DNA from: a virus
Length of the DNA: 25,459 nt
IMG/VR virus record: IMGVR_UViG_3300032156_001600
Span: 1-25,459 of that record
Direction: 5' to 3' (one strand)
Shown here: positions 9,369 through 21,711 of the stretch, piece after piece
Numbering within the stretch: the first letter of the stretch is position 1
Layout of the letters: every line of letters begins with the position of its first letter
The notes under the pieces: generated by a model
The model's database searches: none
The model's input: only the letters and a program-made list of their open reading frames with translations
What the model was told of the DNA's origin: nothing
Position numbers and translations under genes: made by a program

Positions 9369-9986
9369 ATGGCTGACTTCTGGCGAGAGCAAAGGCGGAG
9401 CGAAGTGATGAGCTTGATTCCGGATAGTCATTGGTGCCCGGTGCGCGACGGGGACGCGGCCGCGCGGGCGCTGTACCGGCGGCATTACTCTTGCCGATCC
9501 TATCGGGACTATCGCCGCCAAAAAAAAATTGTTGGGCCGGGAGAGTATGTGCTGATGATTACAGCGGATGAATCAGCCCTGTTTTGCTGGAAGCGTTTTA
9601 TCGACGGGTCGGGGCAGCGAGGAGTCTGCTGTTCGATATTTCGGAACGAAGGGCCGTGCCTATCGAGTGCGCTGATCCGGGAAGCGTGCGACATAGCTTG
9701 GCGACGCTGGCCGGGCGCCCGCCTCTATACCTACGTGAACCGGCGGAAAGTGCAGTCCCGGAATCCTGGATATTGTTTCCAATGCGCCAGCTGGCGGCGA
9801 GCGGGCCGGACCAAGGGAGGATTGCTGGTGTTTGAGATCCTGCCTCAGGTGTTGATGGATACCGGCCCCGGCGGCCCCGCCCAAGACTGCGACGACGCGG
9901 TTGAACGCCGGGCGGCGGAAGGCCGGCGGAGTCATCTTAAAAAATGGTGCAATGGACGGCGCGAGAGCGGGCGGCCTGGCGGGTGA
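9369..9986 (+). CDS. conserved phage protein, possibly GNAT/Mom-like
   Basis: 205 residues, preceded by AAGGA at 9358-9362; an internal ATG at 9408 with GGAG is an alternative start that begins at MSLIPDSHW. I recognise the pattern HWCPVRDGDAAARALYRRHYS, then GPGEYVLMITAD-SALFCWKRF, then GVCCSIFRNEG, SSALIREACDIAWRRWPGARLYTYV and NPGYCFQCASWRRAG as a widespread phage family of unknown function. The layout of an HY motif, a strand pair, a helix after SSxLIREA, and NPGxCFxxAxW before a Gly turn resembles acetyltransferase-fold proteins such as the Mu DNA modification protein Mom, but this resemblance is distant and unproven. It carries an A9 tract at 9520-9528. It overlaps the large terminase start by 43 bases. 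Confidence 0.6.
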   Translation: MADFWREQRRSEVMSLIPDSHWCPVRDGDAAARALYRRHYSCRSYRDYRRQKKIVGPGEYVLMITADESALFCWKRFIDGSGQRGVCCSIFRNEGPCLSSALIREACDIAWRRWPGARLYTYVNRRKVQSRNPGYCFQCASWRRAGRTKGGLLVFEILPQVLMDTGPGGPAQDCDDAVERRAAEGRRSHLKKWCNGRRESGRPGG

Positions 9987-11938: not shown

Positions 11939-12157
11939 ATGAGTAAGAGCAGAAGACAGCAGGAGGCGGGCGACAAGCAGAGCACGGCAGCCGGCGCGGC
12001 GGCGACGGTCCGCTGGACCTTTCCTTCGGGCAGCCGGTGCCCTCGTTGCGGGAGCGCTCAGACGCGGGCGGTGAGCACCCAAGGCAGAGTGCAGTACCGG
12101 CAATGCCAGGCGCCCATTTGCCGACACCGCTACCACCAGTTTGGCCGGGAGATGTGA
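11939..12157 (+). CDS. small zinc-ribbon protein
   Basis: 72 residues with AGGAGA at 11925-11930. After a basic N-terminus, RCPRCGSAQTRAVSTQGRVQYRQCQAPICRHRYHQFG carries C-x2-C and later C-x4-C plus His residues, enough for a zinc ribbon, probably with a His contribution near the end. Such tiny proteins sit between terminase and portal in other phages, and are thought to be DNA-binding or transcription-type regulators (zinc ribbon, Ogr/Com-like). Com of phage Mu is a zinc-finger regulator of mom, and a Mom-like candidate is present just upstream, but homology is not shown. The stop codon lies inside the 34-bp palindrome. Confidence 0.7.
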   Translation: MSKSRRQQEAGDKQSTAAGAAATVRWTFPSGSRCPRCGSAQTRAVSTQGRVQYRQCQAPICRHRYHQFGREM

Positions 12158-12187
12158 AAAAGTTTACAACATTGTAAACTTTTTCAC
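12154..12187. promoter_or_regulatory. 34-bp AT-rich perfect palindrome
   Basis: GTGAAAAAGTTTACAA (12154-12169) and its exact complement TTGTAAACTTTTTCAC (12172-12187) flank a CA. It overlaps the stop codon of the zinc-ribbon gene and is strikingly AT-rich in a GC-rich genome. Read as RNA, the centre (GTTTACAA/TTGTAAAC) with A5 and T5 flanks resembles a weak bidirectional terminator. Read as DNA, each half with its flank resembles a Rex-type operator. I cannot choose between the two. Confidence 0.75.
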
Positions 12188-12338
12188 TTATGGGGGGGTT
12201 TTTCGTGGCGGCGTGAAAAAAAAGGCGCCTAGATTGCCGATGTCGGCCGGGATCGGACCGGTAGGCAAGGCGGCCGTGCAGGGGCCTGCATCCTCGGCAT
12301 GGCCGCCGCGCTCTTGGGACAAGGCCGGGAGTTGAGGC
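12188..12338 (+). other. non-coding gap between zinc-ribbon gene and W-position gene
   Basis: No supported gene. It contains a G7 run, an A8 run (12216-12223), and TGCAGG (12277-12282) and CCTGCA (12285-12290) as a 6-bp inverted repeat with a GG centre. A 64-codon frame crosses it but begins within the previous gene and shows no family pattern. Confidence 0.4.
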
Positions 12339-15474: not shown

Positions 15475-16206
15475 ATGAGCCAAGCATGTGGAACCCCCAA
15501 GACGTTCACGGCGACGGAGGTTCTGGCGGCCTTCCGCCGCGTCAAACTCACCGCCAGCAGCGGGTCGGCCGTGGAGTATTCCGACGCCGGCGAGAACTTC
15601 ATCGGCGCGACGCTGCAACCCGCCTTGACGATCGGCGACCTGCTGGCCGTCAAACTGCGGGGCGATTACGCCACCTTCAAGTTGACGGCGGCCGGGGTCA
15701 TCGCGGTCGGCGCCACGATCTACGCCGCCGCCGACGGAAAGGTCTCCGCCAGCGTCAGCGGCACGGCGATCGGCACCGCCCTGGCGGCCGCCGGCGCCGA
15801 CGGCGACGTGATCGAGGTCTTTCTGGACAATGGGGCGGCCGGCGCCATCGGGGCGACGGCCACTATCGACTACCAGGCGGCCAACGGCGGCATCCCGTTC
15901 CTCGTCAAGGCGTCGCTGACGGCCGCGGGCGCCGAGGACGAGAGCATCCTGGCGGCCCTGCCGCGCAAGGCGGAAATCACGCGGGCCTGGATGTTCGCGC
16001 GCGATACACAGGCGGCCAACGTCACCCTCAAGCAGGGCGGCAACGCCTTCACGGCGGCGACGGCCAAGGGCGGCACCGACGCGGCGCTGGTGAGCTTCAA
16101 CCTGATCGCCGCCTACAAGACCGTGGCGGCGGCGGCGGCCCTGGTGGCGACCTTCTCGGCGGCCGGGGCGGTGGACGTGTTTATCGAATTCGTGCCGGTG
16201 GCCTAA
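15475..16206 (+). CDS. capsid decoration protein, DUF2190-like with extra C-terminal domain
   Basis: 243 residues, AGGAG at 15463-15467. Residues about 24-120 follow the DUF2190 decoration pattern: EYSDAGENFIGATLQPALTIGDLLAVKLRGDY, GVIAVGATIYAAADGKVSA, GTAIGTALAAAGADGDVIEVFLD. DUF2190 proteins are small beta proteins that cap or trimerise on the head surface, the lambda gpD role. The usual length is about 110 residues; here an additional domain occupies residues 140-243 (ITRAWMFARDTQAANVTLKQGGN and the final AVDVFIEFVPVA). The same pattern recurs at the end of the fibre candidate at 23813-24616. It stands just before the major capsid gene, as in lambda D and E. Confidence 0.85.
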   Translation: MSQACGTPKTFTATEVLAAFRRVKLTASSGSAVEYSDAGENFIGATLQPALTIGDLLAVKLRGDYATFKLTAAGVIAVGATIYAAADGKVSASVSGTAIGTALAAAGADGDVIEVFLDNGAAGAIGATATIDYQAANGGIPFLVKASLTAAGAEDESILAALPRKAEITRAWMFARDTQAANVTLKQGGNAFTAATAKGGTDAALVSFNLIAAYKTVAAAAALVATFSAAGAVDVFIEFVPVA

Positions 16207-17961: not shown

Positions 17962-18294
17962 ATGCGAGGAGCGACGGCCGCGACAATGATTCCGTTGAGC
18001 CTGGTCTTGGGTGCGGGCCTGGCCGAGGACTTGACGCGGCTGGCGGACTTTCAAAAAAGCTGGCTGTCGCCTAGGTACGTTATGACCATCGCGGCGTATA
18101 CCCGCCGGGCCGCCGATCCCAACTGGCGGCCGGCGGCCGCCGCCCAGGTGCGCTGGCCGGCGGCCCCGGCCGAGAAAGGCGCGTCGATAGACCTAGACCT
18201 GGGCGGGGGTATGGTGCTGACGGTGCAGTGCGGCTGGCGGGCGGACGGCCTGGTGAACTGGTTGGATTACGCCGAGGAGATGCGCGGTCGATGA
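17962..18294 (+). CDS. small tail-completion candidate, unknown
   Basis: 110 residues. No family is recognised. A first helical half (LSLVLGAGLAEDLTRLADFQKSWLSPRYVMTIAAYTRRA) is followed by RWPAAPAEKGASIDLDLGGGMVLTVQCGWRADGLVNWLDYAEEMRGR, an acidic beta hairpin and helix. The start at 17962 has GATGAGG nearby; an ATG at 17986 is possible. The last codon overlaps the tail-terminator start (ATGA), so a tail- or neck-assembly role is inferred from location between FII- and U-like genes. Confidence 0.6.
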   Translation: MRGATAATMIPLSLVLGAGLAEDLTRLADFQKSWLSPRYVMTIAAYTRRAADPNWRPAAAAQVRWPAAPAEKGASIDLDLGGGMVLTVQCGWRADGLVNWLDYAEEMRGR

Positions 18295-20390: not shown

Positions 20391-21143
20391 ATGGGCGGAT
20401 TTTTCTATTTCGCGGCCGAGGGAACCCGGCACGCGGGGCCGGGCGCCGAGGAGTTGCGGCGGCTGGGTCTGGCGCACCTCATCGGCGAGCCGTTGGCCTG
20501 GCGGGGCTGCGCCGCCGGGCCGGCGGGCCTGGCGGGCACGGTGCTCGCCGCGGGCGCCGAGGCGCAGGCCATCGGCTACTACCCGGACGAGCAGGAGTGG
20601 CGCGAGATCACCCCGGCCCTGGGCCGCGACGAGCAGGCCGGCCGCTGCTGGGTAGGCCGGCGGCGGGGCGAGGCGCCCGGACCCGAGGACCTGGCCCGGC
20701 GGGTGCGGCGGGCCGGTTATGAGGTCCGTTTGGGCGACGGCCGCGTCTGGACGATACCACCGGTGCGCTTCCTGCCCAGCAAATACGGCCTGAGCGAGAC
20801 GGGCGAGTTCCTGGCCGACCCGCTGCCGGAATATGCGCCCTTGACGCGGCAGGCGGAGGCGCTGCGGGCGGAGGTCCTGGAGACGGTGCACGCCGCCCTG
20901 GAGCGGCGGGCCGAACCGCCCACTCGACTAATCCAGGGGCGGCAGGTATATGAATTGTGCGCGGCCTTCTTGGCGATCAATTACCGCGTCGGGATCGTCG
21001 AGGTCTCGGCACTGGGGCTGCTGAACGACCAGACGCTGCCGGCCCTGATGGCGGCGATCCTGGACCTGCCTATCCTAGATGAGCTGCGGGCGGAACTGGC
21101 GGAAAAAAAAAGCGCCGTCTGCGCCGCTGGCGGGCCGGGCTGA
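20391..21143 (+). CDS. tail assembly chaperone, short form (gpG-like)
   Basis: 250 residues, located directly after the tube gene, where lambda has G and T. The N-terminus (GGFFYFAAEGTRHAGPGAEELRRLGLAHLIGEPLAWRG) resembles tube-binding or FN3-like folds used by phage proteins, and residues about 145-250 are helical (LPEYAPLTRQAEALRAEVLETVHAALERR, LIQGRQVYELCAAFLAINYRVGIVEVSAL). The zero-frame protein ends shortly after an A9 run with KKSAVCAAGGPG. The first part would be longer than usual gpG (about 140), so an extra N-terminal domain is fused. It would hold the tape measure for tail assembly. Confidence 0.65.
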   Translation: MGGFFYFAAEGTRHAGPGAEELRRLGLAHLIGEPLAWRGCAAGPAGLAGTVLAAGAEAQAIGYYPDEQEWREITPALGRDEQAGRCWVGRRRGEAPGPEDLARRVRRAGYEVRLGDGRVWTIPPVRFLPSKYGLSETGEFLADPLPEYAPLTRQAEALRAEVLETVHAALERRAEPPTRLIQGRQVYELCAAFLAINYRVGIVEVSALGLLNDQTLPALMAAILDLPILDELRAELAEKKSAVCAAGGPG

Positions 21144-21214
21144 TGCCGGAATATCACCCCACCTACGCGGAGCTGGCGCTGCTGGACGCGATGCTGGAGA
21201 TTGAGGCGCGATGA
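20391..21214 (+). CDS. predicted -1 frameshift product of the tail chaperone (gpGT-like)
   Basis: A -1 slip at the A-tract 21103-21111 replaces the tail KKSAVCAAGGPG with KRRLRRWRAGLMPEYHPTYAELALLDAMLEIEAR and ends at TGA 21212-21214, one base after the ATG of the next gene. Lambda-type phages make G and the elongated GT in a fixed ratio in this way. The extension contains the typical acidic-basic helical end. An alternative is re-initiation at the ATG at 21143 (TGATG) as a separate 23-residue peptide. Confidence 0.65.
21103..21111 (+). promoter_or_regulatory. A9 slippery sequence for -1 frameshift
   Basis: Nine A in the zero frame GAA AAA AAA AGC form an A-AAA-AAA slip site, conspicuous in this GC-rich DNA. 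In the -1 frame the sequence reads on as AAG CGC CGT. Downstream GCGCC and GGGCC segments could fold into a stimulatory hairpin. Confidence 0.7.
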
Positions 21215-21711
21215 TCACCGGCATGAAGATCACCAGCGTGGGGATGCCGACGGAGATTCTTTCGGGCCGCGGGCTGGCGGCGCCGATCCGTCTGGCCCTG
21301 ACCGAGGCGATCGAGGTCTGGCACGGCAAGATGCTGCCGCGACACTTCCGCGGCGGCGCGGCCGAGCGCTACGGCTATCGGCCGCGGAAGGCGGCGACGG
21401 TCAAACGCAAGTACCGCTTCGCGGCCGCGACGGGCAATTACGAGGCCCGGCTGCCGCTGGTGTGGACGGGCCGGCTACGGCGAATGGTCACGTCCGCCGT
21501 CTGCGTGACGACCTCGCGGGCGAAGGGCCGAGGCCACCTCAGGGCGCCGGGGTATGCGCACATGTATAGCCGGGGCGGGAATCGGCCCTACCTGGCCGGT
21601 GAAGTCCTCACCGTGATCGACGATGAGGCGGAGGCCCTGGGCCGGGTCGTGGAGTGGACGCTGACGGCGCTGCTGAACGGCAACCGGCGGCGGCGCGTGC
21701 TGCGGGTGTGA
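21211..21711 (+). CDS. phage virion morphogenesis-type protein
   Basis: 166 residues, start overlapping the end of the frameshift product (ATGA). It has WHGKMLPRHFRGGAAERYGYRPRKAATVKRKYR, then ATGNYEARLPLVWTGRLRRMVTSAV, then YAHMYSRGGNRPYLAGEVLTVIDDEAEALGRVVEWTLTALLNG, a pattern I recognise from phage morphogenesis proteins of the HK97 gp10/Mu G class (helix, positively charged stretch, PLVxTGxLRR turn, final long helix). They complete or join the neck and tail. A Z-type minor tail role is an alternative. Confidence 0.7.
   Translation: MITGMKITSVGMPTEILSGRGLAAPIRLALTEAIEVWHGKMLPRHFRGGAAERYGYRPRKAATVKRKYRFAAATGNYEARLPLVWTGRLRRMVTSAVCVTTSRAKGRGHLRAPGYAHMYSRGGNRPYLAGEVLTVIDDEAEALGRVVEWTLTALLNGNRRRRVLRV

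Follow-up and report, generated by a model that had tools for sequence, protein, structure and literature searches.

Introduction

Does a gene located ahead of the tape measure gene of a virus give two proteins, one of them reached through a change of reading frame at a run of nine adenines? The question is raised by IMG/VR virus record IMGVR_UViG_3300032156_001600, a viral contig of 25,459 bases with a guanine plus cytosine (GC) content of 68%, which was analysed over its whole length and is referred to here as the window. A preliminary description of this DNA had assigned the gene to the tail assembly chaperones and proposed a programmed -1 frameshift of the lambda G/GT type at the A9 run close to its end. 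The analysis described below indicates that the gene very probably encodes a tail assembly chaperone in two forms by -1 recoding at this run. Judged from the sequences compared, the strong evidence is comparative, the A9 run and the -1 tail recurring in dozens of diverged homologues.

The two reading frames at the A9 run

From the ATG at 20391 the zero frame crosses the run as GCG GAA AAA AAA AGC and terminates ten codons past it (21141-21143). A slippery sequence of the X_XXY_YYZ type, A_AAA_AAA at 21104-21110, thus lies shortly before the upstream frame ends, and beyond it the -1 frame runs for 34 codons without a stop; their product after the slip would be KRRLRRWRAGLMPEYHPTYAELALLDAMLEIEAR. 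The coordinates that the preliminary description had given for the run (21103-21111), its phase in the zero frame, the 34-codon frame and the ATGA overlap with the next gene are all correct, and the same overlap device is used elsewhere in the window, at 18291-18294. The statement that an A9 run is unlikely to arise by chance in such DNA held in part: dinucleotide shuffles of the window gave, per 25 kb, an expectation of 0.02 A or T runs with at least nine bases, but the run by itself is weak evidence because a second A9 is present at 9520-9528. This second run also contains an in-phase A_AAA_AAA (CAA AAA AAA ATT) and lies inside an open reading frame (ORF) of 205 amino acids (9369-9986); a stop is reached there after 14 codons in the -1 frame and after eight in the +1 frame, so that slipping would give a truncated product.

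In the mechanism proposed, most translation would end at 21143 and yield the G form of 250 amino acids. In a minority of events a change to the -1 frame would take place at the A9 run, through tandem slippage of the ribosome on A_AAA_AAA, addition of one A to the mRNA by the RNA polymerase, or both, and reading of the -1 frame would then yield a GT form of 274 amino acids with a C-terminal domain of 34 residues. By analogy with lambda G/GT, the tape measure protein would be coated by the part common to both forms, while recruitment of the tail tube protein would fall to the T domain (PMC5009743 for this role and for the lambda precedent). The run, the open -1 frame and the conservation of the two, that of the tail as protein included, are seen in the sequences themselves; from these we infer that recoding occurs, that its rate would be such as to leave GT the minor product, that its mechanism may be one of those named above, and that both products would act in assembly.

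Homologues and conservation of the slip site

The queries used for the detection of homologues were the zero-frame proteins only, and therefore neither the tail nor the slip site was selected for. Single-protein scans with the window chaperone gave no relatives in viral contigs, genome contigs or isolated phages; relatives were therefore sought through the major capsid protein and then with alignments of two to four rows. Most major-capsid relatives of the window have a different tail module, but one of them, L030, has this module in common with it: the gene at the chaperone position is 27% identical, carries an A9 run in the identical codon phase and has a -1 tail that can be aligned with that of the window. 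Later alignment searches added L052, L053 (in a Planctomycetota metagenome-assembled genome), ten further Planctomycetota genomes and more in two classes, and 26 further viral loci were obtained from an alignment search, L121 being left out of the member count as a repeat of L120. In total, viral contigs and Planctomycetota genomes yielded 72 further homologues with identities of roughly 20-40%, which makes 73 members with the window. The isolated-phage collection gave no match to the three members tried, and neither the tail tube protein nor the alignment of the L064-L066 subgroup, used as queries, gave relatives; alignment A5 was too diverse for a scan.

A run of seven to ten adenines occupies the site in 56 of the 73 members, window included, and each of these runs contains an in-phase A_AAA_AAA (A7 in one member, A8 in four, A9 in 46 and A10 in five). 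Expressed without the window, 55 of the 72 homologues have the run, 45 of them with exactly nine adenines. The run is replaced by G_GGA_AAA in L060 and by G_GGA_AAC in L072 and L086, while C_CCA_AAA is common to four weak, distant members, L104-L107. The heptamers that work most efficiently in Escherichia coli are C_CCA_AAG, G_GGA_AAG and A_AAA_AAG (PMC4066793). The genes of L104-L107 are distant and chaperone-like, with a different conserved -1 tail (RWLR...NG...MLV..GRA.PP..W), and probably constitute another recoded tail chaperone family.

The -1 tail as a protein domain

The tail encoded by the -1 frame is conserved as protein, with the consensus RW..RWRRGL.P.YRPT.AD.W.L, in which the column counts were P 54/54, T or S 52/54, D or E 51/54, G 49/54 and W 48/54. 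It might be supposed that the lack of stops in this frame is an accident of GC-rich DNA and that the gene is not a tail chaperone, as long accidental frames are common in a window of 68% GC and a second A9 run is present at 9520. However, a leave-one-out profile, built without the window, detected the -1 frame of the window with E=7e-13, the next best of 519 open frames having E=0.2, and the tail is kept in genes spanning 32% to 78% GC. The tails behind GGGAAAN also lie in the -1 frame (profile E about 2e-8). The extension had been called coding-like in the preliminary description, and the profile agrees with this; on the sequences compared, the chance explanation is refuted as to the tail, and as a whole we consider it very unlikely. 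No match to the tail was found in PHROGs or Pfam, and the tail lengths in the +1 frame had no clear pattern.

The TGATG at 21143 allows a second explanation, in which re-initiation would make a separate small protein from the -1 frame, and the ATG overlaps the zero-frame stop in the window and in L058. The position of the conserved residues speaks against it, since RW..W..G is encoded upstream of ATG 21143 and the PT motif lies upstream of the zero-frame stop in 24/55 members, whereas only 15/55 have a start codon that is close to the stop and precedes the motif; the conserved A-run, moreover, would be left unexplained. Because conserved residues precede the zero-frame stop, re-initiation is not the general route, and its probability seems to us negligible. 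It had been named as the only alternative use of this frame, which does not hold, as transcriptional slippage on the A9 run is another.

A sequencing or assembly error at the run, or decay of a gene whose true form is one continuous frame, was considered as well, homopolymers being error-prone. In L098, which has A8 in place of A9, the conserved tail is in the +1 frame, as the loss of one base would give, either by natural loss or by an assembly error. On the other hand, the two-frame arrangement is found in 54 further, separately assembled homologues with the A-run and in the three GGGAAAN members, which are without a homopolymer, and no one-frame fusion of G and tail was seen among the homologues examined. 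An error of this kind is hardly credible as the source of the two frames.

Identity of the protein and its gene neighbourhood

The AlphaFold2 model of the 250-amino acid protein (mean predicted local distance difference test, pLDDT, 90.8; predicted template modelling score, pTM, 0.85) suggests an N-terminal alpha/beta part (about residues 1-145) and a C-terminal helical part (about residues 146-245). Of the viral models compared with it, the one with the best match in fold bears the annotation 'Tail assembly chaperone' (E=2.7e-3, probability 1.00, template modelling (TM) scores 0.28/0.48), and with the C-terminal part alone the matches at ranks 2 and 4 carry chaperone names, with E about 0.1. 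These predicted similarities would support a chaperone identity without proving it. As no family library recognises the protein, the label of tail chaperone is based on synteny, together with a weak match in fold.

The gene is situated between a major tail (tube) gene and a tape measure gene, both neighbours in the window being assigned by weak matches (Table 1). The family PF10145 is matched by the tape measure genes of L052, where it is the gene directly after the chaperone, and of L053, where it is the one after the next. In the window (21211-21711), L030 (20093-20632), L053 (5554-6117) and L061 the chaperone and tape measure genes are separated by a gene of 155-187 amino acids; it is missing from L052 and L058, where the tape measure gene follows the chaperone directly.

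Table 1. Positions of the probably recoded gene, its signals and its neighbours in the window
Feature	Position	Strand	Evidence or remark
Probable major tail (tube) protein, 300 amino acids	19458..20360	+	Phage_tube_2 E=0.07, below cut-off; relative upstream of L030 chaperone E=5e-26
Zero-frame ORF, 250 amino acids, probable G form of tail assembly chaperone	20391..21143	+	ORF, 72 homologues, AlphaFold2 model, synteny upstream of tape measure
-1 open frame, putative T domain of extended GT form	21083..21214	+	Post-slip part 21110-21211 (34 codons), stop TGA 21212-21214
A9 run (putative slip site)	21103..21111	+	Sequence; A-run at equivalent site in 55 further homologues
In-phase heptamer A_AAA_AAA; P-site AAA 21105-21107, A-site AAA 21108-21110	21104..21110	+	
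Zero-frame stop TGA, overlapping -1-frame ATG 21143-21145 as TGATG	21141..21143	+	
ATGA overlap of -1-frame stop with start of next gene (ATG 21211)	21211..21214	+	
Next gene, 166 amino acids, no Pfam match	21211..21711	+	Relative in L030; genes of similar size in the equivalent position of L053 and L061
Probable tape measure protein, 541 amino acids	21745..23370	+	Position; profile of same-position proteins E=2e-10, strong composition bias

Several results weigh against a recoded tail chaperone. No match to known tail chaperone families was obtained in Pfam, PHROGs or NCBIfam with the 29 members searched; this lack does not exclude membership, tail chaperones being very diverse. The fold match itself is weak (TM 0.28/0.48), and no significant fold match was found in the PDB with either the whole model or the C-terminal part. 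In the window an extra gene separates the chaperone from the tape measure. Ten of the 73 members (L067, L077, L078, L087, L093, L097, L099, L100, L101 and L103) are without a usable slip site, and the conserved tail was not found in any of them, so that ten homologues do without both. RNA structure upstream and downstream of the site did not differ from that of control stretches (mean z -0.05 to -0.4). Shine-Dalgarno-like motifs upstream of the site, found in 18/56 members against 2-7/56 in controls, were rejected as a stimulator, since the enrichment was gone against a synonymous-codon control. A sequence search of solved structures matched none.

For the ten site-less members the preliminary description is of use, as it had named as contrary evidence a destroyed site with the extension surviving as a separate gene. 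This arrangement was not seen, the extension being absent together with the site. The search it had proposed, for the A-AAA-AAA site and an extended C-terminus in homologues, was positive in most, and the -1 change of frame in a tail chaperone gene is supported by these homologues and by the conserved -1 domain. The family is best described as a tail-chaperone family with lambda-like G/GT recoding that is unrecorded in Pfam, PHROGs and NCBIfam.

Ribosome or RNA polymerase

The event had been called a frameshift; -1 recoding stands, while that word has to be qualified, slippage of the RNA polymerase being possible alone or together with ribosomal slippage. A frame change made mainly by the polymerase, that is, programmed transcriptional slippage in which some mRNAs carry A10 and are translated conventionally into GT, has in our estimate slightly under an even chance. 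The run length is nine in 46 of the 56 runs, though the in-phase heptamer needs only seven, and A9 runs are found in all three codon phases, the numbers of extra adenines upstream and downstream of the heptamer being (1,1) in 22, (2,0) in 15 and (0,2) in 9. If only the heptamer mattered, these flanking adenines should be independent and seldom total two; what was observed differs, as they compensate each other (r=-0.78) and the variance of their sum was lower than in all 100,000 permutations. On the tree the codon phase changes at least 23 times and the length 10 times. Nine adenines is the length of efficient polymerase slippage and is selected against in many bacteria (PMC5009743, PMC1088944). 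A run of about nine adenines is thus conserved in length irrespective of phase, the phylogenetic control being only suggestive: on well-supported branches the length lock appears in only four independent pairs, all in the expected direction and too few for significance. Because the length of nine is maintained in any codon phase, and because the RNA structure and Shine-Dalgarno checks detected no ribosomal stimulator, slippage of the polymerase may contribute or dominate.

Other members speak for the ribosome. The sites G_GGA_AAA/C of three lineages and C_CCA_AAA of the distant group are ribosomal heptamers and poor polymerase sites, so that a polymerase site is not kept by the whole family; L060, L072, L086 and L104-L107 are seven members without a homopolymer, and therefore at most the A-run members could use polymerase slippage. 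The in-phase A_AAA_AAA, furthermore, is kept in all five runs other than those of nine or more, where it would be expected in roughly 7% of cases if phase were irrelevant. The GGGAAAN members, by their sequence, point to the ribosome, and the share of the polymerase in the frame change is, in our opinion, close to a toss-up. It is tempting to speculate that the G:GT ratio is set mainly by the RNA polymerase on a length-locked A9 run, with ribosomal heptamers substituting in some lineages; this is put forward tentatively, as a possibility that falls somewhat short of even. If true, it would describe a tail-assembly control device alternating between transcriptional and ribosomal recoding. For dnaX, some species are noted to use the one mechanism and others the other (PMC3711429).

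Comparison with known systems

The GGGAAAN heptamers present in three members are of the type found in lambda G/G-T and its counterparts in long-tailed phages. The usual site of the family is A9, whereas that of lambda is a mixed heptamer, and the G form, of about 250 amino acids, has an extra N-terminal domain compared with lambda gpG, of about 140 amino acids. A sequence relation to lambda was not detectable, the window has an extra gene ahead of the tape measure, and no stimulator was found here.

The dnaX gene of Thermus thermophilus has likewise exactly nine adenines within the coding sequence, and transcriptional slippage on them gives two products from one gene (PMC1088944, PMC5009743). 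There the slip leads to the shorter product, in a 1:1 ratio, whereas here it would give the longer one, and some members of the present family have sites that are not homopolymers. Ribosomal -1 frameshifting at A_AAA_AAG in E. coli dnaX resembles the present case in its tandem lysine slip site and its direction, but there a Shine-Dalgarno-like element lies upstream and a stem-loop downstream, neither of which is enriched in this family. An HK97-like cluster detected by GeneTack also comprises tail chaperone genes whose frame transition is conserved, with 6-7% frameshifting in reporters (PMC3711429); it is a different protein family, which resembles an HK97 protein.

Recoded tail chaperones are already well known, and the novelty here lies in the family with its hidden domain, in its Planctomycetota setting and in an A9 run of locked length. 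In the open-licence literature, which is weak evidence of absence, tail chaperone recoding was described only as ribosomal and no case of transcriptional slippage was found; nor, with the same limit, was a study of Planctomycetota tail chaperones. The results give a tail-chaperone annotation and a hidden C-terminal domain to a family unnamed in the public libraries searched and without a match in the isolated-phage collection, the phylum of its hosts having few isolated phages. The phase-independent A9 run raises the testable question of whether it is the RNA polymerase, and not the ribosome, that recodes some tail chaperones. A second question is whether the two kinds of recoding have taken each other's place during evolution, which is known to have happened with dnaX.

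Other observations in the window and its capsid relatives

A palindrome, GTGAAAAAGTTTACAACATTGTAAACTTTTTCAC, is located at 12154-12187 between the terminase and portal genes, with an A8 run soon after it at 12216, and is possibly an operator or a terminator. Upstream of the major capsid gene, a protein of 243 amino acids (15475-16206) matches two neighbouring places in L003, L004, L006 and L008, as if a decoration-like gene or domain had been duplicated there. In the capsid relatives L006, L008 and L028 several proteins have long C-terminal poly-serine tails.
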